This document shows positions 27,192-46,152 of a stretch of 64,000 nt of DNA, one piece after another. The notes below the pieces were generated by a model. The model made no database searches, was not told the origin of the DNA, and worked only from the letters and a program-made list of their open reading frames with translations. The DNA comes from Bacteroidota bacterium (lineage in GTDB: Bacteria > Bacteroidota > Bacteroidia > Chitinophagales > Saprospiraceae). A program made the translations under genes and the position numbers. The DNA is taken from contig JAIUPL010000022.1 of the NCBI GenBank assembly GCA_020160935.1, positions 1-64,000 of the forward strand, written 5' to 3'. Each line of letters starts with the position of its first letter. Within the stretch, counting starts at the first letter, position 1.

Positions 27192-27200
27192 ATGACTTTG

Positions 27201-27331: not shown

Positions 27332-27346
27332 ATGCCACTAACCACC

Positions 27347-28799: not shown

Positions 28800-29359
28800 C
28801 ACACCACCTTCTCCTCCACAGCCCCTCTCTTCCCTGGAATTTCCGGCATTTCATGCCAGCCCATATAAAACAGGCCCAGGCAGCGCTCGCCTTCGCCGAG
28901 GCCCAGAAATTCATTGGCTTCCAGGGCGGCTTTCGGGCTGCTCCAGTAGCAACCGAGGTTGATGGCGGTACAACTCAGCCACATGTTTTGCACAGCCATG
29001 GCGACCGACGCAATTTCTTCCCATTCAGGGATGCGGGCCTCCGGGTCGCGGCGCATGATGATCGCAATGACGGCGCCTGCCAGCAAGGGGTTTTCGCCGG
29101 CTTTCTGCATTTTTTCTTCTGTAAACAGTTCAGGCGCCGTGTTTTTGCGAAAAAAATCGGACATGTAAGCACTTAGTTCCTTACGACTGTTTTCAGAATG
29201 AAATACCTGAAAACGCCAGGGTTCGGTAAGGCGGTGCGTAGGCGCCTGGTTGGCATTTTCCAGAATCTGCTCGATCACCGATCGGCCGATGGCTTTGCCT
29301 TGGATGTATGTTTTCGGGAAAATAGCCCGGCGCTTGTGTATGAGGGTAGAAATATCCAT
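28793..29359 (-). CDS. Nitroreductase-family flavoprotein
   Basis: 188 residues. The N-terminal FMN-binding stretch (KRRAIFPKTY), the substrate-pocket segment NQAPTHRLTEPWRFQVF, and the C-terminal WLSCTAINLGCYWSSP and FYMGWHEMPEIPGKR fit the small nitroreductase family (FMN-dependent NAD(P)H oxidoreductases). It is a likely dimeric cytosolic enzyme reducing nitro-aromatics or quinones; the physiological substrate is unknown. It ends at the palindrome border (TGATTAGAGG). Confidence 0.88.
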   Translation of the reverse strand: MDISTLIHKRRAIFPKTYIQGKAIGRSVIEQILENANQAPTHRLTEPWRFQVFHSENSRKELSAYMSDFFRKNTAPELFTEEKMQKAGENPLLAGAVIAIIMRRDPEARIPEWEEIASVAMAVQNMWLSCTAINLGCYWSSPKAALEANEFLGLGEGERCLGLFYMGWHEMPEIPGKRGAVEEKVVWR

Positions 29360-29363
29360 TGTT

Positions 29364-29548
29364 TAGTTATCTGTTATCAGTTATTGGTTATCAGGGTGGT
29401 AATGGAGCATTCGTATATATGTTTGGTTTCCGGGATAGGCGACGAAGAAATAAGTCTTTCAATCGGCGTTTTCATATTAGAGTGGCCAAACACAAGTACA
29501 AAGGTACCCTTACCACCCTGATAACCAATAACCAATAACTGATAACTA
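29364..29548. repeat. Composite palindrome, GTTATCAGTTATTGG arms
   Basis: Arms TTAGTTATCTGTTATCAG and following GTTATTGG units at 29364-29390 are mirrored at about 29518-29548. The long core includes GGGTGGTAA mirrored by TTACCACCC and contains TTAGAGTGGCCAAAC, similar to the GTTATGA-class cores at 7611 and 52596. It lies between the nitroreductase start and the radA stop (TAG). Confidence 0.88.
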
Positions 29549-30931: not shown

Positions 30932-30933
30932 GA

Positions 30934-31196
30934 TCAGAGGTGAGAAGTGAGAAGTGAGAGAGTGAGAGAAGTGAGAGGGTGAGAGAAGTGAGAGAGTGAG
31001 AGATGTGAGAGCGTGAGAGAAGTGAGAGGGTGAGAGAAGTGAGAGGGTGAGAGATGTGAGAGTCCGTAGAGTGTGCCGCTCCGCTCAAAAAAACTCAATG
31101 AAACAAGCGGTACACTCTACGGACTCTCACGCTCTCACATCTCTCACGCTCTCACACTCTCACATCTCTCACTCTCTCACTTCTCTCACCCTCTCA
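30934..31196. repeat. Composite palindrome, GTGAGAG arms, overlapping the mfd 3' end
   Basis: GTGAGAGA/GAAGTGAGAG units at 30938-31058 and mirrored units at 31121-31196. The core at about 31061-31121 is CCGTAGAGTGTGCCGCTCC ... GCGGTACACTCTACGG. The right arm encodes the last residues of Mfd (ERVREVRE) and its TGA stop. Confidence 0.93.
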
Positions 31197-33604
31197 ATTT
31201 GTTCCAGCAGACTTTTTACGGCTTTCAAACTCCATACTTCGTCTTGTACCAGAATAAGATCCTTATTGGTTTGTTTCAGTGAAATGCCCATGATACGGCC
31301 TTTACTGGCCACAAGTTGGGCAATTTTCTGGAAATGTTCCGTTTCATAAAACGACGACTGCGGGTCGCTGATAAAATAACAGCGCAATTTACCCCCTTTC
31401 AGAATAAGCCGCTCGAAGCCGATTTTTTTGCATACCCATTGCAGGCGCAGGGCCTCGAACAGGGCTTCAACGGGTTTGGGCAATTTTTCTCCAAAACGGT
31501 CTTTCAGGCGCTGGGCAAATGCCGCGATACCTTCCTCGTTTTCTACATTGTTCAGTTCGGTGTACAAATTGAGGCGCTCCTGCGCATTGCTCACATACTC
31601 GTCTGGAATAAGCATTTCCACGTCCGTTTCGATGGTCACGTCGCGCACATACGAGCCGCGCTGGGCAATTTCTTCCTTGAAAATATCCTTGAAATCGGTC
31701 TCTTTCAGTTCCTGAATGGCCTCATCGAGGATTTTCTGGTAGGTTTCAAAACCAATGTCGGCAATAAAGCCTGATTGCTCGCCACCGAGCAGGTTGCCCG
31801 CGCCGCGTATGTCGAGGTCGCGCATGGCCACCTGAAAACCCGAGCCGAGGTCGCTGAATTCCTCGATGGTTTTCAGGCGTTTGCGCGCTTCCTGGGTGAG
31901 TACGCTCATAGGCGGCGCAAAAAGGTAGCAGTAGGCTTTGGCATTGGAACGGCCCACGCGGCCGCGCAACTGGTGCAGGTCGCTGAGGCCGAACATATCG
32001 GCACGGTTGATAATAATGGTGTTGGCATTGGGGATATCAAGCCCGGTTTCGATGATATTGGTACAAGCCAGTACATCGAATTTTCGGTCGATAAAATCGA
32101 CAAGCACTTTTTCCAGATGGTCGGCGTCCAGTTGGCCGTGGGCCATGGCTACATCGATGTCGGGGCAGAGACGCTGGAGCAGTTCAACAATTTTAGGCAG
32201 GTCGTTCACGCGGTTGTGCACAAAATACACCTGCCCGCCACGGTTGATTTCGGCGTAAATCGTTTCCCGAATCAGGTCTTCATCAAACACCCGTATTTCG
32301 GTATGAATAGGTTGCCGGTTGGGCGGCGGCGTGCGGATCACCGAGAGGTCGCGGGCGGCCATGAGCGAAAACTGCAGGGTGCGCGGAATCGGCGTCGCTG
32401 TGAGGGTCAGCGTATCTACGTTGATTTTCAGGGCGCGCAATTTTTCTTTCGACGATACGCCAAATTTCTGTTCCTCGTCCACAATCAGCAGGCCCAGGTC
32501 TTTAAAACCTATCTCTTTGCCGAGCAACGCATGGGTGCCGATGATGATGTCGATCTGGCCGGCCTGGAGTTTTTCCAGGATATGTTTTTTCTCTTTGGCC
32601 GTGCGGAAGCGGTTGATATAGTCGACCGTAACGGGAAATTCCTTGAGGCGTTCGTTGAAAGTTTTCCAGTGCTGGAGCGCCAAAATCGTGGTTGGCACGA
32701 GCACCGCCACCTGTTTGCCATCCGTGCAGGCCTTGAACGCGGCGCGAATGGCTACTTCTGTTTTTCCAAAACCTACGTCGCCGCAAATAAGCCGATCCAT
32801 GGGGTATTCCTTTTCCATGTCGGCCTTGACGTCGTTGGTGGCCTTGAACTGATCAGGCGTGTCTTCGTACAAAAACGAGGCTTCCAGTTCGGTTTGCAGG
32901 TAGCCATCGGGCGGAAAAGCGTGGCCTTTGGCATTGCGGCGGCCGGCGTACAGTTTGATCAGTTCGGCCGCAATATCCTTGATGCGTTTTTTGGTGCGCG
33001 CCTTGAGTTGTTTCCACGAATCGGAGCCGATTTTGGAGAGTTGCGGCGGCGTGCCTTCCTGCCCGATGTACTTGGAAATTTTGTGCAGCGAGTGAATGCT
33101 GACGTACAGGATGTCGTTGTTTTTGTAATTGAGGCGCACGGCTTCCTGCATCTGTCCGCCGATTTCGATTTTTTGCAGTCCTGCGAATTTCCCGATTCCG
33201 TGGTCGATGTGCGTCACGAAGTCGCCCGGCGCCAGTTCGCGCAGGATACGGGTGTTCAGCGCCTGTTCTCTGGTAAAACCCTGCCGAATCTTGTACTGAT
33301 GGTAGCGCTGGAAAATCTGGTGGTCGGTGAGGACGGCAATTTTCAGGTCTTCATCCACAAATCCTTCATGGATAGGCGTATCAACCGGCAGGAAAGCAAT
33401 ATCCGCTTTCAGTTCCTTGAAAATGGAAGCCAGGCGGTCGAACTGTTTGGTATTTTCAGAGCAAATATAAATCTCGTACCCCGCCGTTTTCCACTCGTGA
33501 AGCGTACGGATCAGGAGGTCAAAATTTTTGTTGAAAGAGGGTTGTGGCCGGGAGTGAAAGGTAATGGGACCGGATTTTACTCCCGCCGCGGATACTTGCG
33601 ACAT
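31169..33604 (-). CDS. mfd: Transcription-repair coupling factor Mfd lacking the UvrB-homology module
   Basis: About 811 residues against roughly 1100 for full Mfd. It begins in the equivalent of domain D3 ([26 protein letters not shown]). The RNA-polymerase-interaction domain ([31 protein letters not shown]), the translocase lobes (Walker [17 protein letters not shown] box [18 protein letters not shown]) and C-terminal D7 follow. Domains D1a-D2-D1b, which resemble UvrB and bind UvrA, are absent. A good -7 box (TATCTTTG, 33624-33631) lies just upstream and a divergent gene begins at 33728, so no room exists for the missing part. The last eight codons come from a palindrome arm. Confidence 0.95.
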
Positions 33605-33623
33605 GAAATCTGTTTTGAGAATG

Positions 33624-33631
33624 CAAAGATA
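33624..33631 (-). promoter_or_regulatory. -7 box (TATCTTTG) for the short mfd
   Basis: TAnnTTTG on the minus strand, 19 bases before the ATG at 33604. It supports the short form of mfd being the native gene. Confidence 0.55.
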
Positions 33632-33676
33632 CCCAAGTCGCCGAAACAATTCCTTCTGTTCAATGGCTTGTGGCGT

Positions 33677-33684
33677 TATCTTTG
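33677..33684 (+). promoter_or_regulatory. -7 box (TATCTTTG) for the sugar-nucleotide genes
   Basis: TAnnTTTG match 43 bases before the start at 33728, back to back with the mfd promoter and using the identical octamer. Confidence 0.55.
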
Positions 33685-33727
33685 CGCGGCAATTTTATTG
33701 CCCCTGTTCAAAGTAACATATGATTCA

Positions 33728-34675
33728 ATGACAAAAAAACGAGTGCTCATCGCCGGCGCTGCCGGATTTATCGGTTCGCACCTTTGCGACCGCTTTATGG
33801 CAGAAGGCTATCAGGTAATAGCCATGGACAATTTGCTGACCGGCGACCTGGCCAATATTGAACACCTGTTCAAGGAAAAAGATTTTGAATACTACCACCA
33901 CGACGTCACGAAATTCATCCATGTTCCGGGAAAACTCGACTACATCCTGAATTTTGCGTCGCCTGCCAGCCCCATCGATTACCTGCAAATGCCCATTCAG
34001 ACCCTGAAAGTGGGCGCGCACGGTACGCACAACCTGCTGGGGCTTGCCAAGGAAAAGAAAGCGCGTATTCTGGTGGCCTCTACGTCCGAAGTGTATGGCG
34101 ACCCGCTGGTACACCCGCAAGTGGAAGAATACTGGGGAAATGTGAATCCCGTGGGTCCGCGCGGCGTGTACGACGAAGCCAAACGCTTCCTGGAAGCCAT
34201 CACTATGGCCTACCACAATTACCACCAGGTGGAAACACGCATTATTCGTATTTTCAATACCTACGGCCCGCGTATGCGTGTCAATGACGGCCGCGTTTTG
34301 CCCGCATTTTTCTCACAAGCCATTCGCGGTGAAGGACTTACGGTGTTTGGAGACGGCTCCCAGACGCGCTCGTTCTGCTACGTAGACGACTTGGTGGAGG
34401 GCATTTACCGCCTGTTGTTGAGCGATTACCACCTGCCAGTCAACGTAGGTAACCCATCGGAAATCACCGTGATGCAATTTGCGCACGAAGTGATGGATCT
34501 GGTACAAAACCCGAAAGCGTACATCGACTACCGCCCGCTGCCGGTAGACGACCCGAAACAACGCCAGCCGGACATTACCAAAGCGCGTACGATCCTGGGT
34601 TGGGAACCTAAATTCGACCGCGCCACAGGTATGCGCCTGACATACGAATACTTCAAAAAAGTAGTGACCGTTTAA
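33728..34675 (+). CDS. UDP-glucuronate decarboxylase-like SDR (UXS)
   Basis: About 315 residues. NAD-binding [12 protein letters not shown], the acidic strand end MDNLLTGD, the catalytic Tyr-x-x-x-Lys in [12 protein letters not shown] and the substrate-loop signatures [17 protein letters not shown] and [19 protein letters not shown] all match UDP-xylose synthase-type enzymes. It converts UDP-glucuronate to UDP-xylose for surface glycans. The start is set at ATG 33728; the open frame further upstream only mirrors mfd. It is followed 15 bases later by rfbB and is probably co-transcribed with it. Confidence 0.93.
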
Positions 34676-34690
34676 CCTCGATTTCCTGTC

Positions 34691-35737
34691 ATGAACATAT
34701 TGATTACCGGAGGCGCAGGCTTTATCGGCTCGCATGTCGTTCGCCTGTTCGTTGAAAAATACCCGCATTACCGCATTGTCAACCTCGATGCGCTGACCTA
34801 TGCCGGCAACCTCGAAAACCTGCGCGATGTGGAGCAGGCGCCGAATTATGTATTCGAACACGGCAGTATCCTCGATGCGGAATTGTTGCGTACGCTGTTT
34901 GAAAAATACCAATTCGACGGCGTCATTCATCTGGCTGCCGAAAGCCATGTGGATCGCTCCATTTCCAACCCGGTGGCTTTTGTGGAAACCAATGTGCTGG
35001 GCACGGTGCAACTGTTGAATGCTGCGCGCAACGCCTGGAAAGACAATTTTCACGGCAAACGTTTCTACCACGTTTCCACCGATGAAGTATATGGTTCGCT
35101 GGGCGACGAGGGTTTTTTCACCGAAGAAACCCGCTACGACCCGCGTTCGCCGTATTCAGCCTCCAAGGCATCGAGCGACCATTTCGTGCGCGCCTACTGG
35201 CATACTTACCACCTGCCGGTCGTGCTGTCGAATTGCAGCAACAACTATGGCCCGAACCATTTTCCGGAAAAACTGATCCCGCTGGTAATCAACAACATCC
35301 GCGAAGAAAAACCGCTGCCCATTTACGGCGATGGAAAATACACGCGCGACTGGCTTTGGGTAAAAGACCATGCTTCTGCCATCGATACCATTTTTCATGG
35401 CGGGCGCAATGGTGAAACCTACAATATCGGCGGCAACAACGAATGGAAAAACATCGACCTGGTGGAAAAACTCTGCGATATCGTGGATGAATTGCTCGGG
35501 CGCCCGCCAGGCTCGGCCCGCCAACTCATCACATTTGTGCCCGACCGCCCCGGCCACGATCGGCGATACGCCATCGATGCCTCCAAACTGCGCGACGAAC
35601 TGGGCTGGGAACCTTCCATCCGTTTTGAAGAAGGTTTCAGACAAACCGTGCAATGGTATCTCGACAATGAAGAATGGCTACGCCATGTGATTAGCGGCGC
35701 GTACCAGGCGTACTACGAGGCTCAGTATAAGAGGTGA
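34691..35737 (+). CDS. rfbB: dTDP-glucose 4,6-dehydratase
   Basis: 348 residues, the standard length. GGAGFIGSHVVRLF binds NAD; DALTYAGNLENL and HLAAESHVDRSI are RmlB signatures; the catalytic site is in STDEVYGSLG (Thr-Asp-Glu) and YSASKAS (Tyr-x-x-x-Lys). It makes dTDP-4-keto-6-deoxyglucose, the entry to dTDP-rhamnose and other deoxysugars. The rest of the rml genes are not in the window. The TGA stop falls in the first unit of a one-sided repeat arm. Confidence 0.95.
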   Translation: MNILITGGAGFIGSHVVRLFVEKYPHYRIVNLDALTYAGNLENLRDVEQAPNYVFEHGSILDAELLRTLFEKYQFDGVIHLAAESHVDRSISNPVAFVETNVLGTVQLLNAARNAWKDNFHGKRFYHVSTDEVYGSLGDEGFFTEETRYDPRSPYSASKASSDHFVRAYWHTYHLPVVLSNCSNNYGPNHFPEKLIPLVINNIREEKPLPIYGDGKYTRDWLWVKDHASAIDTIFHGGRNGETYNIGGNNEWKNIDLVEKLCDIVDELLGRPPGSARQLITFVPDRPGHDRRYAIDASKLRDELGWEPSIRFEEGFRQTVQWYLDNEEWLRHVISGAYQAYYEAQYKR

Positions 35738-35777
35738 GAGGTGAGAAGCGAGAGGTGAGAAGCGAGAGGTGAGAACG
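35731..35777. repeat. One-sided GTGAGAAGCGAGAG arm
   Basis: Three to four GAGGTGAGAAGCGA units follow rfbB and include its stop. There is no mirrored arm. This opens the 416-base gap to 36153, which also holds one REP unit and three hairpins. Confidence 0.8.
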
Positions 35778-35786
35778 TAAAATTGA

Positions 35787-35830
35787 AGCCCTGAAAGGGC
35801 GTATCCAATAGCATAGCGCAACGCGCTATG
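35787..35830 (+). repeat. 44-bp REP unit (single)
   Basis: Matches the right-hand unit of the pair at 24637-24680, with two paired changes in the second hairpin (ATAGCGCAACGCGCTAT) that keep the stem intact. Such compensatory changes suggest the hairpin is selected. Confidence 0.88.
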
Positions 35831-35868
35831 AAAAAAATGAAAAAAATCGAGGGGAGACTCCCGCACCC

Positions 35869-35896
35869 GGCGCGACGACTAAACAATCGTCGCGCC
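35869..35896. repeat. Perfect 10-bp hairpin
   Basis: GGCGCGACGA pairs with TCGTCGCGCC around an 8-base loop. No T-run follows on either side; function unknown. Confidence 0.7.
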
Positions 35897-35935
35897 AAGT
35901 GCCATAACCGAGGATGATATACAGGCGGGGGCCGT

Positions 35936-35985
35936 TGATTTTCTAAAAAAAATCCTACTGCCAGAAGGACAGCAGTAGGAAAATC
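35936..35985. repeat. Hairpin in the rfbB-CpxP-like gap
   Basis: GATTTTC ... CCTACTGC pairs with GCAGTAGG and GAAAATC. It could act as a terminator for rfbB. Confidence 0.65.
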
Positions 35986-36093
35986 AAAACATACTATGAG
36001 AAAACTGGGACGAAGATAACTTCACACCCCGCCTATTGACAATATCTTTTTACGAAGCGGCGGGAAATTCAGAGGAAGCGGCGGAAAAAATGA

Positions 36094-36132
36094 AAAAACG
36101 TCTCCGGCATACTCGTTGCCGGAGACGTTTTT
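36094..36132. terminator. Bidirectional terminator
   Basis: AAAAACGTCTCCGGCA pairs with TGCCGGAGACGTTTTT, 16 bp with A- and T-runs on the two sides, so it can stop transcripts from both directions. It lies 21 bases past the stop of the minus-strand operon. Confidence 0.88.
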
Positions 36133-36153
36133 GTTGGTGCGCCCGGCTGCCGG

Positions 36154-36633
36154 TCAATTGCGGCCGTTGGGGCGATTCAATCGGTCGAGGCGTTTTTGCC
36201 GATTTTCCTGGAGTTTTTTCAGTAGCGACTCGCGGAATTCGCGTTCGGCCACCGGGATTTTGGCAATTTTCCGGACAGGCAGCACCTTGCGGAGTTTTTG
36301 GCCCAGATCCTTTTCCAGATCGAGTTCGCGCTGGCGCAGTTCGAAGTATTTTTTGACGTAATCTTCCACTTCGCTGTCGTTCATGCCGTCGAGTTGGGTG
36401 CTGGGCTTGAGTTGTGCCTGCACTTCTTCCTTTTTATCGAGGTATTCATTGAAAATAGGCCAGAACGATTCGGCTTCCGAGGGCGTCAGGTTGAGCACTT
36501 CGGTAAAAACGGCTACGCGATAAGCCTGCACTTTTTTATCGCGCATTTCAGGGTTGCGTTGAGCCGATGCGGTTGTGCAGAGTGTGCAAAAAAAGAGTGC
36601 TACAACCAGGGCTTTACTGATAAGCGTATGCAT
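36154..36633 (-). CDS. CpxP/Spy-like periplasmic protein of an ECF sigma operon
   Basis: 159 residues with a signal peptide (MHTLISKALVVALFFCTLCTTASAQ), then an all-helical, Arg/Glu-rich body with the LTPSEAESFWPIFNEY segment typical of Bacteroidota proteins annotated as sensors of ECF-type sigma factors, which resemble CpxP/Spy (LTxxQ-type) periplasmic chaperones. It is the third gene after the sigma and anti-sigma genes on the same strand and may report periplasmic stress. The tail is very basic. Confidence 0.75.
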   Translation of the reverse strand: MHTLISKALVVALFFCTLCTTASAQRNPEMRDKKVQAYRVAVFTEVLNLTPSEAESFWPIFNEYLDKKEEVQAQLKPSTQLDGMNDSEVEDYVKKYFELRQRELDLEKDLGQKLRKVLPVRKIAKIPVAEREFRESLLKKLQENRQKRLDRLNRPNGRN

Positions 36634-36657
36634 GTGAACTTGTTTTGTATCAATAAC

Positions 36658-37194
36658 TTAAAGCAGTGATTCCAGTTCTTCCTCACTCATTTGCTGGAGC
36701 AGGTTTTCCATTTCAGCAGGCGAGATATCGTCAAGTGTTTTGGAATCGGATTCTTCATGAAGCGTGGTATTCGCCGGTTCGGATATTTCTTGTTCGGGCG
36801 TTATGGCTGCCAGTTGTTCGGAGTCGAATTCGGTGATATTGTCCATCACATATTCCTCGATCTCGTCTTCTGTCAGCGTTTCGGTATAAATTTCTTCAGG
36901 AACCGGCGCCAGCGGTTGCGGGCGGAGCACCCACCACGATGCCACGGCTATCACTGCTACGGCGGCGGCGGCGGCCCACATGCGAGGTTTCCAAAGGGCG
37001 CGCAATACGCCGCCGGGGCGGGCCGACAGAGCAGGGCGGAGGGCGCCTTCCGATTCCAGTTTGCTGAAAATGGCATCTTCCAGTTGATCAAAATAATCCT
37101 CCGGCACATGCATACTTTCAGGCCTTTGTTTTTGCTGCTGCAAAAAAGGCGAAAGGCTTTTCAGTTCTTCTTGTAACGTTTCCTTCTTGCTCAT
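36658..37194 (-). CDS. Anti-sigma-factor-like membrane protein
   Basis: 178 residues with one transmembrane helix near residues 72-90 (MWAAAAAVAVIAVASWWVL). The N-terminal cytosolic part carries the ESMHVPEDYFDQLEDAIFSK motif typical of Bacteroidota anti-sigma-like proteins, and the periplasmic part is acidic, ending in MSEEELESLL. It lies directly behind the ECF sigma gene with a 13-base gap, so it probably holds that factor inactive. No zinc-binding HxxxCxxC motif is seen, so it is not a classic ZAS protein. Confidence 0.75.
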   Translation of the reverse strand: MSKKETLQEELKSLSPFLQQQKQRPESMHVPEDYFDQLEDAIFSKLESEGALRPALSARPGGVLRALWKPRMWAAAAAVAVIAVASWWVLRPQPLAPVPEEIYTETLTEDEIEEYVMDNITEFDSEQLAAITPEQEISEPANTTLHEESDSKTLDDISPAEMENLLQQMSEEELESLL

Positions 37195-37207
37195 ATCATC
37201 CAGATTT

Positions 37208-37783
37208 TTACAATTCGCGGAATACGGCTTCCACTTTTTTTACTGCGTGGTGAAACGAAGCCTTCAAGGCGCCGGTGGAAGTGGCGAGTATGCTCGACAT
37301 TTCTTCGTAAGGCATTTCCTCGTAGTACCGCAAATTGAATACAATGCGTTGTTTTTCAGGCAGTTCTGCAATGGCTTTTTGTAGTTTTAATTGAATCTCG
37401 TCGCCATCGAACCACTCATCTGCCTGCAGGCGATTGCTCAGCATTCCGGCGGAATCGTCGATCGAATCGGAGGCGTGCCTGGCCTTGCTTTGCAGGTGCG
37501 AAATGGCTTCGTTGGTAGCAATGCGGTACAACCAGGTGTACAATTTGGATTTTCCTTCAAACTGCAACACACCTTTATATACCTTGATGAAAGTGTTTTG
37601 CAACACATCATCGGCATCTTCATGCACCAAAACCAGCCGGCGAATATGCCAGTACAGCCGCTCCCGATATTGCGACATCAGTTGCCGGAACCCCCGCTCG
37701 AACGTATGTTCCGAGCGCAGCAATTCCATAATCTGTTCGTCTGATACCGGTTTACTGGTTGCGATCTGTGGCAATGGATTCAA
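37208..37783 (-). CDS. ECF-family RNA polymerase sigma factor
   Basis: 191 residues. Region 2 is visible as YWHIRRLVLVHEDADDVLQNTFIKVYKGVLQFEGKSK-type sequence (positions 48-85) and region 4 as LPEKQRIVFNLRYYEEMPYEEMSSIL (positions about 140-165), with the normal YTWLYRIATNEAI link. The start appears to be TTG (37783); the first in-frame ATG would remove 18 residues. It heads a three-gene operon with its anti-sigma and a CpxP-like protein. The promoter region faces the phyH-like gene across a palindrome. Confidence 0.92.
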   Translation of the reverse strand: MNPLPQIATSKPVSDEQIMELLRSEHTFERGFRQLMSQYRERLYWHIRRLVLVHEDADDVLQNTFIKVYKGVLQFEGKSKLYTWLYRIATNEAISHLQSKARHASDSIDDSAGMLSNRLQADEWFDGDEIQLKLQKAIAELPEKQRIVFNLRYYEEMPYEEMSSILATSTGALKASFHHAVKKVEAVFREL

Positions 37784-37841
37784 TTTGTATGGTTATGACG
37801 GCAGAAACGGGGAAAGGTTTAATGTGGGGGGGAAAATCACG

Positions 37842-37849
37842 TACCTTTG
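37842..37849 (+). promoter_or_regulatory. -7 box (TACCTTTG) upstream of a palindrome
   Basis: TACCTTTG with TTTA 20 bases before it (a three-of-four -33 match). It points toward the phytanoyl-CoA-dioxygenase-like gene at 38033, which would place the whole palindrome at 37857 in the transcript leader. Confidence 0.5.
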
Positions 37850-37856
37850 TTTTTTT

Positions 37857-38029
37857 AGGGTTGATGAGGGTTGATAAAGGTTGATGAGGGTTGATATTCA
37901 TCGGCTCGGGTAGGAGCACTTTTCCTCTTCATCGAGCCGATGAATATCAACCCTCATCAACCTTTATCAACCCTCATCAACCTTTATCAACCCTCATCAA
38001 CCTTTATCAACCCTCATCAACCCAATCCA
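37857..38029. repeat. Composite palindrome, GTTGATGAGG arms
   Basis: GTTGATGAGGGTTGATAAAG units at 37860-37892, core GATATTCATCGGCTCG ... CGAGCCGATGAATATC, and an expanded right arm of CTCATCAACCTTTATCAACC units to about 38025. The right arm has twice as many units as the left. It lies between the divergent sigma and phyH-like genes. Confidence 0.92.
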
Positions 38030-38032
38030 CCC

Positions 38033-39004
38033 ATGTTCTCACGTCTTTTTCAAAAATACACCGGCTTTCTGCGCAATTTGAAAGCCTCCTATGTGATCAA
38101 TAACCTGATGCACGCGGCGCAGTTGCGCAGAAACCAGGCATTTTACAAACAAATGGGCCTGAAAAAAAGCGTGTTCAGCCCCATTGGTGCCAGGGATTTT
38201 GAAGGTCGCCACCATCCGGACATTCCGTGGCTGGATAGGCCCAATGCCTTGCAACGCCTGGAAGAAGATTTGACATTTCAGGCATTCGAGCCGCGTTTGC
38301 AGACAAAGTTCCGGCAATTTGTGACGGACGGCTACCTGGTGCTTGAAAACTTTTTCCCCCGGGAGGAAACAGACCAACTGGTGGCCGAGGTAGAAGGCCT
38401 GCTCAACAGCGGAAAAACGGCCTACAACTACACCGGCCGCAAGATATTCAACCTGCCTGCACAGAGCGACCTCGCCAATCGGTTTTACCGCCACCCGACA
38501 CTGCTGTCGTACCTGTCGTTTTTGTTGGGGAAACCCGCACTGCCGTTTCAGTCCATGAATTTTACCCTGGGAAGCGAACAGCGTGCGCACTCCGATTCCA
38601 TCCACATGATGACCGAACCGCAGGGTTATCTGATTGCCACCTGGATTGCGCTGGAAGACTGCACGGAAGAAAACGGCCCCCTGTTTTACTATCCGGGTAG
38701 CCATCGGCTGCCGTATGTGACGACCCAGGATTACGATTCGGGCAATACCTTTTTCACCATCGGCGAGCACAGCAACCGGCATTATGAGGACAAAATTGCT
38801 GAGGTCATTGCCCAAAACGACCTGAAAAAACAACTTTTCCTGGCCAAACGCGGCGATGTCCTCATCTGGCATGCCAACCTGCTGCACGGAGGCAACCCGA
38901 TCCTGCGCCCCGGCGTCACTCGTAAAAGTATGGTTTGCCACTATTTTGCCGAAGGCGTTTTCTGCTACCATGAGATGTCGCAACGTCCGGCACTGACGAG
39001 GTAG
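38033..39004 (+). CDS. Phytanoyl-CoA dioxygenase (PhyH)-family protein
   Basis: About 323 residues. The Fe(II)/2-oxoglutarate oxygenase facial triad is visible as His-x-Asp in QRAHSDSIHM and a distal His in LIWHANLLHGGNP; the 2-oxoglutarate Arg is probably in ILRPGVTRKS. Family members hydroxylate lipids, ectoine or small metabolites; the substrate here is not predictable. Start ATG 38033; the frame upstream is made of repeat-encoded Asn-Pro-His-Gln units. The stop (TAG) abuts a large nested palindrome. Confidence 0.85.
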   Translation: MFSRLFQKYTGFLRNLKASYVINNLMHAAQLRRNQAFYKQMGLKKSVFSPIGARDFEGRHHPDIPWLDRPNALQRLEEDLTFQAFEPRLQTKFRQFVTDGYLVLENFFPREETDQLVAEVEGLLNSGKTAYNYTGRKIFNLPAQSDLANRFYRHPTLLSYLSFLLGKPALPFQSMNFTLGSEQRAHSDSIHMMTEPQGYLIATWIALEDCTEENGPLFYYPGSHRLPYVTTQDYDSGNTFFTIGEHSNRHYEDKIAEVIAQNDLKKQLFLAKRGDVLIWHANLLHGGNPILRPGVTRKSMVCHYFAEGVFCYHEMSQRPALTR

Positions 39005-39383
39005 TCATTGGTTATTGGTTATTGGGGGGTAAGGGGTGATGGGTTTTTCAGGCTGGGCGGCTCGGAAGCGGTTGAGTAGTTGAGTAGTTGAGGGGTTGAG
39101 TAGTTGAGTAGTTGAGGGGTTGAGTAGTTGAGGAGTTGAGGGGTTGAGATTCAGCCACTCAGCAGCAGGAGAGAGATTTTTCATCACACGAGTGGCTGAA
39201 TCTCAACTACTCAACCCCTCAACTCCTCAACCCCTCAACTCCTCAACCCCTCAACTCCTCAACTCCTCAACCCCTCAACTCCTCAACTCCTCAACCCCTC
39301 AACTCCTCAACCCCTTCCGAGCCGCCCAGCCTGAAAAACCCATCCCCCCTTACCCCCCCCAATAACCAATAACTAATAACCAA
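39003..39383. repeat. 380-bp nested composite palindrome, the largest in the window
   Basis: Layers from outside in: GGTTATTGG units; a unique 45-base spacer from GGTAAGG to GGAAGCGG containing TTTTTCAGGCTGGGCGGCTC; GTTGAGTAGTTGAG(GG) units; core GATTCAGCCACTC ... GAGTGGCTGAATC. All layers are mirrored on the right, ending in AATAACCAATAACTAATAACC. The right inner arm is longer (about a dozen CTCAACCCCTCAACTC units). It fills most of the 512-base gap to 39517; the rest contains a possible promoter. Confidence 0.95.
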
Positions 39384-39487
39384 AATTAAGAATGCTCCCA
39401 ACTATACCATACAACGCATTCGGCACGTTTTTGGCGGCAAACGGTGTGAAACTCGGGGTAAGTGGGTGTTTCCACAAAAAGACTGAC

Positions 39488-39495
39488 TATTTTTG
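39488..39495 (+). promoter_or_regulatory. -7 box (TATTTTTG)
   Basis: TAnnTTTG match 21 bases before the ATG of the PorG-like gene. Confidence 0.45.
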
Positions 39496-39516
39496 CCCCT
39501 TTAATGTTTGATTTCC

Positions 39517-40335
39517 ATGAATTTATTCAAACTCTGCATGTTGGTTGCCGGGCTGGTTTTGTTGCGGCAAAATGATATTTTTGGTCAAATGCGTGGCTGG
39601 GAGGCCGGTGGGCAGGTGGGCGCCTCCAATTATTTCGGCGACCTGAACACCAACTGGCGCCTCAACCGGCTGCACCTGGCAGGCGGCGTGAATGCCCGTT
39701 TTAACCTGAACGATCGTTTAGCACTCAGATTTGGCCTCAATGCGGGCCAGATCAGCGCCTACGATTCCGATTCCAAAAATATTTTTGAACAGCGCCGCAA
39801 CTTGCACTTTCGCAGCCTGATTGCGGATGCCGTGTTGCAGTTCGAATTCAATTTCCTGCCCTACGTGCATGGCCACCGCGAATACTGGTACACACCGTAT
39901 ATGTTTGCCGGACCTTCGTTCTTCTATTTCAACCCCAAAGCCGAACTCGACGGTACCTGGTATGCCCTCAGCGAATACGGTACCGAGGGGCAGTTCCGCG
40001 GCGAGGAATACAACACTACCCAGGGCGCTATCGCCTATGGCGTAGGTTTTAAAATGGACCTGTCCTACCGCTGGAGCGTCAATGTCGAACTGAGTGCACG
40101 CAAAGTATTTACCGACTATCTCGACGATGTGAGCGGCAATTATGCCGATATCCGCGACATCCGTGCCCAGCGCGGCGAAATCGGCGCAGCCCTAGCCGAC
40201 CGTTCTATCGAACCCCAGATCGGCCAGGCAGGTCGTCAGCGCGGCAATGGCAAAAACAATGATTCCTATGTGATACTCGGCGTTGGCGTACAGTATTACT
40301 TTGGGTATATTCGTTGCCCGGCGTTTACGAGATAG
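39517..40335 (+). CDS. DUF6089/PorG-like outer-membrane beta-barrel protein
   Basis: About 272 residues with a signal peptide ending near DIFGQ. The mature part begins WEAGGQVGASNYFGDLN, the usual opening of DUF6089 proteins, and continues as an 8- to 10-strand barrel (aromatic-ended beta strands such as YTPYMFAGPSFFYF, AIAYGVGFKMDL, YVILGVGVQYYFGYI). PorG, a T9SS outer-membrane component, belongs to this family. The assignment to PorG itself is uncertain because Bacteroidota carry several paralogues. PorX in the same window is suggestive only. Confidence 0.75.
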   Translation: MNLFKLCMLVAGLVLLRQNDIFGQMRGWEAGGQVGASNYFGDLNTNWRLNRLHLAGGVNARFNLNDRLALRFGLNAGQISAYDSDSKNIFEQRRNLHFRSLIADAVLQFEFNFLPYVHGHREYWYTPYMFAGPSFFYFNPKAELDGTWYALSEYGTEGQFRGEEYNTTQGAIAYGVGFKMDLSYRWSVNVELSARKVFTDYLDDVSGNYADIRDIRAQRGEIGAALADRSIEPQIGQAGRQRGNGKNNDSYVILGVGVQYYFGYIRCPAFTR

Positions 40336-40342
40336 GACTTTT

Positions 40343-40432
40343 AGTTATGAGTTATGAGTTATATACACGTTGCTTTCGGCTTTTCTATTCGTGTAGCCGA
40401 AAGCAACGTGTATATAACTCATAACTCATAAC
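40343..40432. repeat. Composite palindrome, GTTATGA arms (shortest copy)
   Basis: A perfect 39-base arm from AGTTATGAGTTATGAG to GTTGCTTTCGGCT, a 12-base loop, and the exact mirror. The core is related to those at 7611 and 52596 (TTGCTTTTGGC / GCCAAAAGCAA). It lies between the PorG-like gene and xseA, very close to the xseA start. Confidence 0.95.
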
Positions 40433-40449
40433 TCCAAAACTCATCACTC

Positions 40450-41679
40450 TTGTCCACCCATTCCCTTTTCGATCTCCAAGAGTACATCCGCCGGGTGCTG
40501 GCGCTGAATTTTCAGCAAGCCATATGGATCACTGCGGAAATAGGGCAGGCTGGCCAGTCGAAGGGCCATTATTACCTCGAACTCATTCAAAAAGGTGAAG
40601 GCGACGAATTGCTGGCCCAGGCCTCTGCGGTGTTGTGGGCCAAGGAATACCGGCGATTGCGACTGCAACTGGGCGCCGACCTCGATGCCGTATTACAGAC
40701 AGGCTTGCAGGTGCGCATGCAGGTGCGCGTCGATTTTCATGAACGTTACGGGCTGAAACTACTCATCACCGACCTCGATCCTGCCTTTACTTTTGGAGAA
40801 GTAGATCGCTTGCGGCGACAGACCATTGCGCTGCTGCGCGAACAAGGTGTGTTGGAGCAAAACAGTCGGCTGCCCTTGCCCGTCGTGTTGCAGCGCATAG
40901 CCGTGGTAAGTTCGGAAGGCGCTGCCGGCTTGCAGGACTTTCTGGAACAACTTCGCAGTAACAAATTTGGGTATTCGTTTGATTGTCAATTATTTGAATC
41001 GTCGGTGCAAGGCAAAAGCGCTGCGGCTGAAATGCAACTGGCGCTGCAACGCGTGGCGCAGGAAGCCGCATTTTTCGACTGCGTGGTGATCGTGCGGGGT
41101 GGTGGCGCCCGGCTCGACCTGGCGGCTTTCGACCAGATAGATTTGTGTCGTACAGTGGCCCGAATGCCTTTGCCGGTGCTCAGCGGTATTGGCCATGATG
41201 TGGATGAAACGGTACTCGATCTGGTAGCGCACACCTCGCTTAAAACCCCCACGGCGGTGGCCGAATTCCTTATACAACACAACCTGTTTTTTGAAAATGA
41301 TCTGCTGCAAATGGCGGCGCAGATACGTTTGCAGGCCGATCATCAAATGCGCTGGCAAGCACTTGACCTCGCCAATCGTGAAATGGAAATGGCCTGGGCC
41401 GTTCGGCGACGCCTCGATCAGTCAGCCCGCCAAGTGGATACCTGGGAAGAATCCTTGCCGTTATTGACTGCCAATATTCTGAAAAATCATGCCGGCCTGC
41501 TGGCGCATGCTGAAGCCTTGTGCGCAGCCTTTTCACCTGAACGGGTGTTGCAACGTGGCTATAGCCTTACCATGCACAAAGGAAAAGTGGTATCAAGTGT
41601 GCGGGATGTCCAGCCGGGCGATATGATTGAAACCAGGCTGGCAGATGGGGTAGTAGCGTCTAAAATTTACGATGGATGA
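40450..41679 (+). CDS. xseA: Exodeoxyribonuclease VII large subunit
   Basis: 409 residues. The N-terminal OB-fold (QQAIWITAEIGQAGQSKGHYYLELI) binds single-stranded DNA, and the catalytic core has IAVVSSEGAAGLQDFLEQL, VVIVRGGGARLDLAAFD and LSGIGHDVDETVLDLVAHTSLKTP-type sequence in which the last covers two adjacent motifs. The C-terminal LQRGYSLTMHKGKVVSSV repeat is also typical. The only sensible start is a TTG at 40450, eighteen bases past a palindrome; xseB does not follow. The last codons and the TGA stop lie inside the arm of the next palindrome. Confidence 0.95.
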   Translation: MSTHSLFDLQEYIRRVLALNFQQAIWITAEIGQAGQSKGHYYLELIQKGEGDELLAQASAVLWAKEYRRLRLQLGADLDAVLQTGLQVRMQVRVDFHERYGLKLLITDLDPAFTFGEVDRLRRQTIALLREQGVLEQNSRLPLPVVLQRIAVVSSEGAAGLQDFLEQLRSNKFGYSFDCQLFESSVQGKSAAAEMQLALQRVAQEAAFFDCVVIVRGGGARLDLAAFDQIDLCRTVARMPLPVLSGIGHDVDETVLDLVAHTSLKTPTAVAEFLIQHNLFFENDLLQMAAQIRLQADHQMRWQALDLANREMEMAWAVRRRLDQSARQVDTWEESLPLLTANILKNHAGLLAHAEALCAAFSPERVLQRGYSLTMHKGKVVSSVRDVQPGDMIETRLADGVVASKIYDG

Positions 41680-41811
41680 TTACATGATTTCCGATTTATG
41701 ATTGGAATTTAGAATGAAAGATTTTCGATTTTGGGCATCTCAACCAATCATAAATCGCCATTCTTACATTCCAATCATAAATCGGAAATCATGTAATCGT
41801 CCATCGTAAAT
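41664..41811. repeat. Palindrome whose arm includes the xseA 3' end
   Basis: ATTTACGATGG and the following TGATTACATGATTTCC (from 41664) are mirrored on the right up to CCATCGTAAAT (41811), about 43 bases per arm with few mismatches. The arm units are ATTTCCGATTTATGATTGG-like. The left arm starts inside xseA codons, and the right arm ends 4 bases from the stop of the convergent gene. Confidence 0.92.
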
Positions 41812-41814
41812 CAC

Positions 41815-42243
41815 TTACTCCTTCCGCGTCAGCGTCTTCTTGTCTTCTGTCCAGATAAAACTGTCGGGCACAAAAATCTTGGCTTCAGGAATTTCTGTCA
41901 CTTCACCCGCCGGGGTTTTTAACTTGTTTTTATTGCGATCGGGCATTTTGGTGTACAGCCGGATTTCTTCCTGAGAGGTGGAGTCCAGGGCGACATCGTA
42001 GCGGCCGTTTTTGATCAGAAAATCCAGAATTTCTTTCGAACCATTACCGAGTTTGATGGTGGTTTCGATCAGCACACTGTTGCCCGCCCAGGTATAAATT
42101 TCGTAGATATCGGATATTTCGAGGTGGATGGTTTTGACGGAATCAGCCTGGAACATCTGATAGAGCGTTCGTACCATTTGCGCCTGGCTGTTGCTGTAAA
42201 AAATGCCGCACAGAATCACGAGCAGAAGAAATCGACGAGTCAT
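41815..42243 (-). CDS. Small exported protein, paralogue of the gene at 42624
   Basis: 142 residues with signal peptide (MTRRFLLLVILCGIFYSNSQ). The mature part has VKTIHLEISDIYEIYTWAG, an NG...NGRYDV stretch and EAKIFVPDSF. It shares this order (Trp, V-x-V/I-E, L-x-NG, GRY, then P-E-x-x-x-F/VP) with the protein at 42624, so the two are paralogues. The fold looks like short beta strands, similar to DUF4097/auto-adhesin-like domains; the function is unknown. The open frame extends upstream to 42369, but the signal peptide fixes the start at 42243. Confidence 0.65.
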   Translation of the reverse strand: MTRRFLLLVILCGIFYSNSQAQMVRTLYQMFQADSVKTIHLEISDIYEIYTWAGNSVLIETTIKLGNGSKEILDFLIKNGRYDVALDSTSQEEIRLYTKMPDRNKNKLKTPAGEVTEIPEAKIFVPDSFIWTEDKKTLTRKE

Positions 42244-42383
42244 ATTGTAGAGAGAGTGTGGCTCCGGGATTGTTGAATGTGAAATGCAAGATGCTGGCCC
42301 ATGTGCGTAGCGCACAAAACGCCGGCAAAAATAACGGTATTGATACGTTAGAATTGCACATGGTTGCACTGGAAGAGGCCCTT

Positions 42384-42546
42384 AGAGCATGTTTGGGATT
42401 TTTTGCCTGGTTCTGAAAAGATGGATTTTTTGTACGTTTTTCGCGTTTTTTCATGCGCATAGTGGTGACTATGTAAGTGAAAAAAGGTGAAAAACGCGCA
42501 AAAAAGCCGCTTTTCAGGCCTGGTAAAAAAATCCCAAACATGCTCT
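42384..42546. mobile_element. MITE-like full-length hairpin element
   Basis: A 163-bp element whose ends are GAGCATGTTTGGGATTTTTT and its mirror; the inverted repeats extend about 70 bases inward with mismatches, and the loop contains CATAGTGGTGACTATG. TTA flanks both sides (TTA-GAGCATG ... CATGCTC-TTA), consistent with a 3-bp target duplication. It encodes no protein. Ends beginning with GAG and a 3-bp duplication recall some IS5-group elements, but no parent transposase is in the window. It sits between the two small exported paralogues in a 380-base gap. Confidence 0.8.
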
Positions 42547-42550
42547 TAAA

Positions 42551-42591
42551 ATAAAAAATCCCGAATTTTTCAGCGAGTGAAAAATCCGGGA
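42551..42591 (-). terminator. Terminator for the gene at 42624
   Basis: On the minus strand, TCCCGGATTTTTCA pairs with TGAAAAATTCGGGA and is followed by a T-run. It belongs to the CCCGGATTTTTC terminator family also seen at 10422 and 52376. Confidence 0.85.
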
Positions 42592-42623
42592 GATTGGAAA
42601 TGTATAATTCTAAACAGGAAACC

Positions 42624-43046
42624 TTATTTGACGTCGGCCAACGTAGCAACGTTGGGCACAACGATTTTCAGGTCTTTGGGGGCAAAAACGGTGTACGTCA
42701 GGTTTTCACGCAGTACTTCTCCTTTTACCTTGATTTGTTTTTGAATGTTGGGCATCAGGATGTGTAGCACATCACCTTCGACAAGAGAAGAGATGTTGTA
42801 GCGACCTACATTCGCCAGTTCGTTGACCATCGAGTTGTTGCCATTGGCAAGGCTGATTCCGATTTCGACACGAACAGTCGGATTGTTCCAAATCTTTAGG
42901 TCGACATTTCCTGGCAGATCCAGTTTGATCGTGCCTTTGTCTTCAGTGTTAAAAGTTTTTGAAAAAGTTTTGCCCACCGAAGACTGGGCGAGAGATAACA
43001 TGGGGATCGCGAGGAGGATAACAATTGCATTTATTTTGGTTCTCAT
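42624..43046 (-). CDS. Small exported protein, paralogue of the gene at 41815
   Basis: 140 residues with signal peptide (MRTKINAIVILLAIPMLSLAQ). The mature part reads IKLDLPGNVDLKIWNNPTVR, then LANGNNSMVNELANVGRYNI, LHILMPN and LTYTVFAPKDL, with a short C-terminus. The pattern of beta strands and the GRY motif match its neighbour at 41815. It is probably a periplasmic or surface beta-strand protein. It has a proper terminator, unlike its paralogue, which ends at a palindrome. Confidence 0.65.
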   Translation of the reverse strand: MRTKINAIVILLAIPMLSLAQSSVGKTFSKTFNTEDKGTIKLDLPGNVDLKIWNNPTVRVEIGISLANGNNSMVNELANVGRYNISSLVEGDVLHILMPNIQKQIKVKGEVLRENLTYTVFAPKDLKIVVPNVATLADVK

Positions 43047-43234
43047 AACAAACCTCCTTTTTTTATTGTGACAAAGTAAGATTTTAATTTTGGTAAAAGC
43101 AAGTGGTAAAGCAAATTTTATTCTATTCTTAACAACGAAGACAATAGCCTGGAGGTTGGGTCGAGAATTGATTTTTTCGTAAAGTAGCGGTTGAATCCTT
43201 TGGCGTACCTTCGCCCCATCAAACGATTCGATCC

Positions 43235-44614
43235 ATGAAGCAATTCAGATTATTTTTCTTTGTATTCGTTATCCTTTCGGTTACTGCCTGTTCGCCCAGA
43301 ATGGCGGTGAATACTGTGCCGGTTGGGCCTAAAGGCAATGCGGCGCTTCAAAGTGGCCCTATGCTCGGCTACGCCGATATGTTCGAAGTACTCATTTGGA
43401 TTCAAACAAACAGCGCCGCCCAGGTGTATGTAGCGTATTGGGATGTGGAAAAACCGGATATGAAATACACCACCACGCCTGTGACTACGGTCGCGGAGCA
43501 TGGGTTCACGGCAAAATGTATTGCCAACCGCCTGCAACCCGGCAAAAACTACCAATACACCGTTTATCTTAACGGTGGGGCCGTGCAACTGCCATACCCC
43601 ACCACCTTCAAAACACAGGTGCTGTGGCAGTGGCGCACCGATCCGCCCACCTTTACTGTGGCGATGGGCAGTTGCGCATACGTTAATGAACCCGAATACG
43701 ATCGCCCTGGAAAACCTTATGGCTCCGAATACCAGATTTTTGGCAGTATTGCGGCCCAAAAACCGGATGTGATGTTGTGGCTGGGCGACAACTTCTACTA
43801 CCGCGAACCCGACTATTTTACCCGAACAGGTATGTTGCATCGCGCTACGCACACACGCTCCCTGCCGGAAATGCAACCCTTGCTGGCCGCTACGAACAAC
43901 TACGCTATCTGGGACGACCACGACTTTGGCCCCAACGACGCCGACGGCACCTTCATTCACAAGGAAATGGCCTGGGAGGTGTTCCGCGACTTTTGGGGCA
44001 ACCCGACTTTTGGTCTGCCAGGGCAAAAAGGTTGCACTACTGCGTTCAGTTACAATGATGTCGACGTTTTCATGCTCGACAACCGCTATTACCGTACGCC
44101 AGATTACTGCAAAACCTGTCCGGAAAAAACAGCGCTCGGCAAAGAACAACTCGAATGGTTCCTCGAGGCACTGACGACCAGCCGGGCGCCGTTTAAACTG
44201 GTGGCTATTGGCGGGCAACTGCTGACCACCGACGACCACGACGAAACCTATCAACACCTGTACAAAGCCGAACGCGACACCATCCTGGCTCGCATCGAAC
44301 GCGAAGGGATAAAAGGGGTGGTTTTCCTGACGGGTGACCGACATTTTACAGAACTCAGCGCCTTGAAAAACAAGGCGGGCAACTGGGTGTACGACCTGAC
44401 CGTATCGGCGCTTACCTCCGGAGCCTTTGTGGATGCTGGCAAAAAAATAAAAAATGACTTTCGGGTGGATGGCACCGTGGTCGATTACCACAGTTATTCT
44501 GTTTTGCGATTCAGCGGCCCGCGCAAGGAACGCCAGATGCAAATCAATGTGTACGATTCCAATGGCAAGGAACTCTGGACCAAAACCATAGGCCCCGACG
44601 GAAACCTGAAATAA
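43235..44614 (+). CDS. PhoD-like alkaline phosphatase family lipoprotein
   Basis: 459 residues. A lipobox (LSVTAC) follows the signal. An N-terminal fibronectin-like domain (residues about 40-130) and a metallophosphatase domain with MGSCAYVNEPE, MLWLGDNFYYREPD, AIWDDHDFGPNDADG and FLTGDRHFTELS are visible; these are the metal-binding motifs of the PhoD superfamily (D-N, D-D-H-D, G-D-R-H). It probably releases phosphate from esters or cell-wall polymers outside the inner membrane. A possible promoter lies near 43205 (TACCTTCG). Confidence 0.9.
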   Translation: MKQFRLFFFVFVILSVTACSPRMAVNTVPVGPKGNAALQSGPMLGYADMFEVLIWIQTNSAAQVYVAYWDVEKPDMKYTTTPVTTVAEHGFTAKCIANRLQPGKNYQYTVYLNGGAVQLPYPTTFKTQVLWQWRTDPPTFTVAMGSCAYVNEPEYDRPGKPYGSEYQIFGSIAAQKPDVMLWLGDNFYYREPDYFTRTGMLHRATHTRSLPEMQPLLAATNNYAIWDDHDFGPNDADGTFIHKEMAWEVFRDFWGNPTFGLPGQKGCTTAFSYNDVDVFMLDNRYYRTPDYCKTCPEKTALGKEQLEWFLEALTTSRAPFKLVAIGGQLLTTDDHDETYQHLYKAERDTILARIEREGIKGVVFLTGDRHFTELSALKNKAGNWVYDLTVSALTSGAFVDAGKKIKNDFRVDGTVVDYHSYSVLRFSGPRKERQMQINVYDSNGKELWTKTIGPDGNLK

Positions 44615-44692
44615 TCGTGGTATTTTGGCCGCCTGGAATATTCGCCCAAAGAGGAATCCGGCAAACGACCAATTTGCCCAAAATTAACAAGA

Positions 44693-45742
44693 ATGGCATC
44701 TCCTAACCAACCAGTAGGCGTACTGGGCTCGGGCAGTTTCGGAACTGCGGTAGCCAACCTGCTGGCATATAACTCGGACGTATTTCTCTTCAGCCGAAAA
44801 CCTGAAGTAGTCGATGCGATCAATGAAACCCGACACCACCTCGGCGTAGAAATATCCGAACGGGTACGGGCTACCAGCGATCTGGCAGAACTGGCTGCCC
44901 GTTGTACCCTGATTTTTCCAATTGTGCCGTCGAACAGTTTTCGTAGCATGATGCAGGCGTTGGCGCCTCACTTGCGCCCCCACCACATCATCATACACGG
45001 CACAAAGGGCTTCGACCTGAAAGACATCGAAGAAAACGACCTGGAAAAACCGGGGCTTGTGCTCACGCGCGCCAACGTGCGCACCATGAGCGAAGTAGTG
45101 CGCGAGGAAAGCAGCGTCGTGCGGGTTGGGTGCCTGTCGGGCCCCAACCTCGCTGCCGAAATCATGGCAGGGCAACCAGCCGCCACCCTTGTAGGCAGCC
45201 GATTCCGGGAAGTGATTCAGGCAGGTCAAACAGCCCTCAACAGTTCGAAATTTCATGTATTTGGCTCGTACGACATCCTCGGCGCCGAACTGGCCGGTGC
45301 GCTCAAAAACATCATTGCGCTGGGATCCGGCGTAATAGGTGGCCTGGGGCTGGGCCGCAATATTCAGGGCCTGCTCATCGCGCGCGGCCTCGCTGAAATG
45401 GTTTATTTCGGTAAATCACTCGGCGCTACCAGCCACGCTTTTGTAGGGGTGGCCGGCATTGGCGACCTCGTCGCCACCGCCACGAGTACCAACAGCCGCA
45501 ACTACTCCTTCGGAATGCGGCTGGCCAAAGGCGAATCCACCGAACACATCCGCGAACACATGCCCGAACTGGCCGAGGGCGTGCGCACCCTGCGCATCGC
45601 CCACCAACTGGCCCGCCAGCACAAACTCCACGTACCCATCACCTCCATGCTCTATGCTGTGGTGTTTGAAAAATACCCCATCGAAAAAGCCCTGGAGTTT
45701 TTGATGACCTACCCTTATGCGATAGACGTAGACTTTCTTTAG
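44693..45742 (+). CDS. gpsA: Glycerol-3-phosphate dehydrogenase [NAD(P)+]
   Basis: 349 residues. The N-terminal Rossmann motif GVLGSGSFGTAVANLL is followed by the GpsA catalytic Lys region (VGCLSGPNLAAEIMAG; LAGALKNIIALGSGVIGGLG) and the C-terminal helical domain (AEGVRTLRIAHQLARQ). It reduces dihydroxyacetone phosphate to sn-glycerol 3-phosphate for phospholipid synthesis. The stop TAG abuts the TTTAGAGG border of a one-sided repeat arm. Confidence 0.96.
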   Translation: MASPNQPVGVLGSGSFGTAVANLLAYNSDVFLFSRKPEVVDAINETRHHLGVEISERVRATSDLAELAARCTLIFPIVPSNSFRSMMQALAPHLRPHHIIIHGTKGFDLKDIEENDLEKPGLVLTRANVRTMSEVVREESSVVRVGCLSGPNLAAEIMAGQPAATLVGSRFREVIQAGQTALNSSKFHVFGSYDILGAELAGALKNIIALGSGVIGGLGLGRNIQGLLIARGLAEMVYFGKSLGATSHAFVGVAGIGDLVATATSTNSRNYSFGMRLAKGESTEHIREHMPELAEGVRTLRIAHQLARQHKLHVPITSMLYAVVFEKYPIEKALEFLMTYPYAIDVDFL

Positions 45743-45826
45743 AGGTGAGAGGTGAGAGAGTGAGAGAGTGAGAGAGTGAGAGATGTGAGAGTGTGAGACG
45801 GTGAGAAATGTGAGAGATATGAGAAG
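45736..45826. repeat. One-sided GTGAGAG arm after gpsA
   Basis: TTTAGAGGTGAGAGG and about ten degenerate GTGAGAGA units without a mirrored partner. In place of the second arm, two REP units follow, as if the right half of a palindrome had been replaced. It opens the 410-base gap to 46152. Confidence 0.88.
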
Positions 45827-45842
45827 GGAGCCATCACGGTAT

Positions 45843-45886
45843 AGCCCTGAAAGGGCGTCTGCAGTAGCACAGGGCAACGCCCTGTG
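45843..45886 (+). repeat. 44-bp REP unit, tandem copy 1
   Basis: AGCCCTGAAAGGGCG, a 10-base linker TCTGCAGTAG, then CACAGGGCAACGCCCTGTG. Confidence 0.9.
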
Positions 45887-45906
45887 AATAAAAAACACAT
45901 AAGTAT

Positions 45907-45950
45907 AGCCCTGAAAGGGCGTCTGCAATAGTACAGGGCAACGCCCTGTG
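45907..45950 (+). repeat. 44-bp REP unit, tandem copy 2
   Basis: A direct repeat of the unit at 45843, differing at few bases. A decayed third copy (GGCAACGCCCTGTGGCG) is visible near 45983-46000. Confidence 0.9.
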
Positions 45951-46054
45951 AATAAAAAATGTGAATAAAACACCACGCGCGTCGGCAACGCCCTGTGGCG
46001 AAGGCATTCGCCCACCATACCATCCCCACATTTTTTTGTATTCCCACATTGCAA

Positions 46055-46062
46055 TACATTTG
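46055..46062 (+). promoter_or_regulatory. -7 box (TACATTTG)
   Basis: TAnnTTTG match with TTTG 16 bases upstream (46035-46038), which is short spacing. It lies 90 bases before the start of the large gene at 46153. Confidence 0.45.
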
Positions 46063-46152
46063 TAAGTCAATGAGTTGTATTCGTATATGCCGGATGCAGG
46101 CAAAGCGTCTGTTTCTCAGCATATACCCATCATGTTCTTACGCCACAGTTAC

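Follow-up and report, generated by a model that had tools for sequence, protein, structure and literature searches.

In bacteria, long palindromes are usually regarded as unstable. Among repeats of related form, the foldback elements of eukaryotes (FB of Drosophila) carry long inverted arms of layered tandem repeats, and the tandem heptamer repeats of cyanobacteria are short tandem units lying between genes. In E. coli, the removal of long palindromes is ascribed to SbcCD, and REPs are described as 20–40 bp long, tagged with GTAG or CGTC and often associated with RAYTs (PMC3733652); insertion sequences are reported to target REPs (PMC1525189). The mitochondrial and plastid palindromes of Volvox carteri are described as dispersed, intergenic, often inserted into one another and present in both orientations, with an average length of 50 nt and loops of 3–5 nt (PMC2670323). 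Template switching between inverted repeats has been reported to homogenise their arms and to invert spacers (PMC8604942); hairpins are reported to be both generated and preserved by the same process (PMC8794818).

The element at 39003–39383 lies in a window of 64,000 nt (the whole stretch of DNA that was analysed) belonging to a genome of 5.84 Mb in 51 contigs, and is intergenic, with a PhyH-like gene on one side and a PorG-like gene on the other. It spans 381 nt and is a real palindrome, with a DNA fold of −156.2 kcal/mol (z = −24.8) against −48.9 ± 4.3 kcal/mol for 100 shuffles, 0/100 of which folded as well. Its arms pair at 39004–39029/39355–39380 (26 nt, 92% identity) and at 39024–39148/39234–39358 (125 nt, 90% identity). 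Read inwards, heptamers come first, then a second layer about 45 nt long, then an octamer array and last a tip. These features and two related copies in the window are as follows:

39011–39024, + strand, outer shell, left: two GTTATTG heptamers, by sequence reading
39025–39070, + strand, second layer, left: GGG..TTTTTCAGGCTGGGCGGCTCGGAAGC, recurring in other copies in the same genome
39071–39148, + strand, left-hand inner array of the octamer GTTGAGNN, with about 9.8 copies
39149–39201, no strand, core hairpin tip ATTCAGCCACTC..GAGTGGCTGAAT with an asymmetric loop
39202–39315, − strand, right-hand inner octamer array of about 14.2 copies, exceeding the left one in length
39316–39359, − strand, second layer, right, with 2 differences from the left in 44 aligned positions
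39360–39380, − strand, outer shell, right: three heptamers CAATAAC CAATAAC TAATAAC
18498–18717, no strand, second nested copy with a shortened second layer and the same layer order as 39003–39383
29364–29548, no strand, shell-only relative with GTTAT heptamer arms and a different interior

The layer order given in the preliminary description (outer array, spacer layer, GTTGAG array, core, all mirrored) was confirmed. The outer unit, given there as GTTATTGG, is actually the 7-mer GTTAT[TC]N, and the 45-base layer, called unique, proved to be the usual second layer of a compound element that recurs across the genome, being found in 18 of 23 records scanned from the same genome, which is not a frequency as most of these records were fetched for their resemblance to the element. 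The claim that the arms were copied as a whole also fails: the octamer array covers 78 nt in the left arm and 114 nt in the right, and its unit variants follow different orders in the two. For the copy at 18498–18717 the equal layer order holds, but its supposedly different spacer is, by eye, a shortened form of the layer at 39003 and lacks the CAGGCTGG half in each of its arms.

The likeness to REPs and BIMEs is that of many-copy intergenic bacterial palindromes; the present elements differ in reaching hundreds of bp, in their tandem arms, and in having no linked transposase and apparently no consistent GTAG tag. Against the 20–40 bp of REPs, the element at 39003 measures 335 nt as an ungapped palindrome and 381 nt when folded, and GTA directly precedes the first heptamer (giving GTAG with the unit) at 9 of 53 array ends. 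The Volvox carteri palindromes are likewise dispersed, intergenic, often nested and found in both orientations, but they are short and organellar, and tandem-array arms are unmentioned in the available portion of that account, whereas those described here are bacterial and long and have tandem arms. Template-switch homogenisation predicts like arms and spacer inversion, although the cited accounts concern yeast genes and RNA genes and not nested dispersed repeats. The long inverted arms of tandem repeats that define foldback elements in general usage are present at 39003–39383, and short intergenic tandem units are shared with the cyanobacterial heptamers as these are commonly described. The elements look like a new variant, sharing a general theme with REPs and the Volvox palindromes and differing in size, tandem arms and host; no element of this kind was found named for Saprospiraceae in listings of the open-licence literature.

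An ungapped scan picked out 23 palindromes in the window that do not overlap and score 18 or more, with 0 in three block-shuffled windows. At a score of 25 the window contains 22 (3.4 per 10 kb) and five other stretches of the same genome, 100 kb together, contain 14 (1.4 per 10 kb), so that the window is richer than these five. Other sampled relatives have 0 to 4 per 10 kb, with none in 11 of 26 other genomes (7–20 kb each). The motif GGGTTTTTCAGGCTGG, allowing up to two mismatches, gave 57 matches in the genome against 9 for a reversed control. An exact-pattern scan for the second layer gave no match in a genome contig collection from which records of this genome may be absent, and plasmid and phage searches gave none. 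At Rfam 15 gathering scores, the sole match in the whole window was a tRNA at 52429–52512. In an order-level draw of 298 genomes, 44 had a match, mostly to arrays only among the matches listed, and a palindrome scoring at least 20 was present in 4 of 21 of those loci (L185, L191, L192 and L193), nine longer loci being listed for their central part only. In other genera, GTTGAG-armed palindromes lie in contigs of 8.4 Mb and 5.1 Mb, at three of the four loci taken there.

These data bear on the reading of the palindromes as errors of assembly. The relatives found by name through protein comparison are Saprospiraceae or Bacteroidota metagenome assemblies, which would favour such errors; against this, the arms at 39003–39383 differ by about 10% and the palindromes recur in the two large contigs mentioned, which makes an artefact extremely improbable. 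The duplication of one half in assembly, given in the preliminary description as what would refute it, is also unlikely, as the arms differ and palindromes occupy the 39003 site in three separate assemblies.

Palindromes of the window were assigned to layer classes by eye. In classes A, B, C, D and E the 5′ arms appear by eye almost free of C and the 3′ arms almost free of G, on both strands. The mechanical reading frames 27332–28606 and 3743–5299 stop within a palindrome arm (at 28598–28606 and 5296–5299), so the arms seem to supply stop codons. The palindrome at 57650–57860 consists of 21-nt repeats with AATACGT motifs and is unlike the other classes.

The two arms of one copy tend to change together. 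In the 15 copies for which both second-layer arms were captured (the one-arm records L030, L036 and L133 were excluded), the arms are 96.1% identical within a copy and 83.8% between copies (permutation P ~1e-5). Differences between arms total 26 positions, against a mean of 104 and a minimum of 60 when right arms were re-dealt, which indicates that changes tend to hit both arms of a copy together. The nearest right arm was the copy's own in 14 of 15 copies with ties allowed and in 12 without ties. Inverted copying seems to work here as a correction process keeping the arms alike.

To follow the sites between relatives, window stretches 1–20,000, 26,400–46,000 and 45,000–64,000 were mapped onto G043 and G016, whose PhyH neighbour proteins are the most similar (91%) and next most similar (82%) among 42 genomes of the genus. 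Co-occupancy was scored at a palindrome threshold of at least 20 with the ungapped finder, which misses arms with indels, so that some absences are likely false. Across 26 syntenic gaps in G043 widened by 250 nt, 14 held a palindrome in both genomes, three in the window only, one in the relative only and eight in neither (P = 0.0008), so that G043 has a palindrome at 14 of 17 gaps with one in the window and at 1 of 9 gaps without. With 150-nt widening the counts were 13, three, two and eight (P = 0.004). The 24 gaps of G016 gave 12, four, two and six at 250 nt (P = 0.032) and 11, four, three and six at 150 nt (P = 0.092). The initial test with 60-nt margins gave P = 0.053 for G043 and 0.41 for G016; these values are weaker because gene calls cut into palindromes, and the gaps were widened afterwards. 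Long palindromes are common here, and many sites stay palindromic between relatives as their sequence turns over.

Shells and interiors were then compared with G043 at 17 of 25 sites, picked after inspection of the relatives' loci; 5290, 21200, 41660, 45735 and 57650 had no syntenic pair, and 19820, 24514 and 56690 were left out as G043 holds no long palindrome there (at 19820 it has a short terminator-like hairpin). Over the 17 sites, shells and interiors both matched their orthologs above chance (interiors, P = 0.00005), so that some of the sites are a matter of plain inheritance. Where the interior score was at background, at nine sites, the shells still matched their orthologs above chance (P = 0.0005, 0.001 and 0.004 for three window sizes); within this group the shells at 39003 and 55300 beat every non-orthologous comparison, and 37855 and 54565 had no real shell signal. 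The shell is unconserved in G043 at 37855, 42380 and 54565, with a weak interior score at 42380. In G016 no signal emerged over its 13 sites taken together (P = 0.21 for the outer and 0.17 for the inner part), although 39003 itself scored 23 there, against at most 20 at any non-orthologous site.

The preliminary description had proposed a search for versions with only the outer layer, and these were found at 39003 in both relatives. G043 has the heptamer shell around a AAGGAGACC interior with an extra right arm (by eye), and G016 combines the shell with a TTCCAGGCTGG stem closing in a short hairpin, the GTTGAG layer being missing from both. In G006, a palindrome with GTGTTTGG arms lies just downstream of the orthologous gene. 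At the 18498 ortholog, G016 has a heptamer shell without GTTGAG and G043 a palindrome of another class.

The element is probably made up of dispersed palindromic repeats that are non-coding, and built by insertion or replacement at the centre followed by correction of one arm to the other. A second palindrome family, with arms of GTTGAG octamers, would have taken over the tip of a heptamer-armed shell with its second-layer stem, the outside layers being presumably the older and the inside ones the younger. The arms would then have been kept alike by the copying of one onto the other, most simply through polymerase template switching between them during replication; the co-variation is observed and the enzymatic step is proposed. 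Together, tip insertion or replacement and the later correction of arms explain why shells persist, why interiors change and why the two arms are alike. The repeats are judged to be mainly selfish or neutral.

The step-wise growth by inverted copying that the preliminary description had offered beside insertion into the centre would place inverted copies of the flank about a hairpin that was already there. Inverted copies are reported as a product of template switching (PMC8794818) and the arms do co-vary, but outward growth predicts that new layers surround a core which is old and conserved, and of this the 17 sites gave no clear case (42380 and 52590 are ambiguous); the outer layers belong to dispersed families and not to a local gene flank, and in G043 shells tend to outlast changed interiors. 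Outward growth is accordingly very unlikely, and this order of conservation favours insertion or replacement at the centre.

The route by which a new interior would arrive may be transposition into the loop or exchange between copies sharing a shell, with insertion very slightly preferred. Ectopic exchange, by gene conversion or long-range template switching among such copies, overlaps with central replacement and is a plausible account, if a little short of probable. Class A sites have GTGAGAG arms. Five of them were compared with G043, where four, namely 1579, 28595, 30945 and 54565, hold one identical other interior (TTGAATCAGGATTTT...), the exceptions in the class being 2321, without that interior, and 5290, without a syntenic pair. 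An exact 15-mer of this interior gave seven matches, all at those four sites, in the seven G043 loci searched, and at three of the four the GTGAGAG arms persist outside the new interior. The pattern points to a shell-guided process, either exchange or targeting. Junctions are mostly seamless in appearance, and the duplicated right arm at 39003 in G043 (by eye) also fits exchange; exchange alone, however, does not explain how the compound element could gain a layer beneath a stem that it kept. Plain insertion predicts loop remnants, which the mostly seamless junctions speak against; clear unmirrored remnants were noticed by eye at one G016 site, and no obvious target duplication was seen by eye in the flanks. 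The loops of GTTGAG cores occur in both orientations, which does not separate inversion from insertion in either direction. G006 carries a palindrome nested in three or more layers, the inner class of which is similar, by eye, to a stand-alone palindrome of that genome. The G016 locus orthologous to 28595 (L076) has a palindrome of about 436 nt in which several layers and, between two of them, unmirrored stretches can be made out by eye.

A more tentative possibility is that hairpin elements target existing hairpin loops and stack at fixed intergenic sites, each new layer being mirrored by replication-coupled correction. If so, the order of layers would preserve a site's past much as tree rings do. 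The layered copies offer natural replicates for the origin of hairpins, the upkeep of arms and the enzymes that tolerate them, and a relative that keeps the shell and exchanges the inside, as is often seen, gives a way to follow the formation and persistence of hairpins.

A 150-aa Y1 (IS200-like) transposase gene adjoins a GCCCTGAAAGGGC palindrome at 24583–25245. G043 and G016 have Y1 genes too, in what look like syntenic positions; a similar palindrome stands beside the one in G016, and none is listed near the one in G043. Mobilisation of REP/BIME-like repeats by this RAYT-like protein (24793–25245), which matches IS200-like models, was considered. Among 27 sampled genomes, palindromes and Y1 tend to be found together: 14 have both, five Y1 only, two palindromes only and six neither (P = 0.033, uncorrected for phylogeny or sample size), and the palindromes of the two genomes without a Y1 match speak against such a mover. 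Around 14 chosen Y1 genes (about 900 nt each, with the first 150 nt of each palindrome viewed), the palindromes are mostly G+C-rich and of other classes, one gene has no palindrome listed, and neither the layers of the 39003 element nor its repeat flanking a RAYT gene was seen by eye. Mobilisation by Y1 is for these reasons rather unlikely.

A link with SbcD was considered and rejected. G000 gave no SbcD match, yet 38 of 42 genomes of the genus did, only five above the curated cut-off, and the palindrome-rich G043, G016 and G006 have weak matches, so there is no clean relation. It should also be noted that G022 carries a 596-bp inverted repeat (L149, 11497–12092) with an open stretch between its arms that looks like a putative remnant of an ORF6N-type protein.
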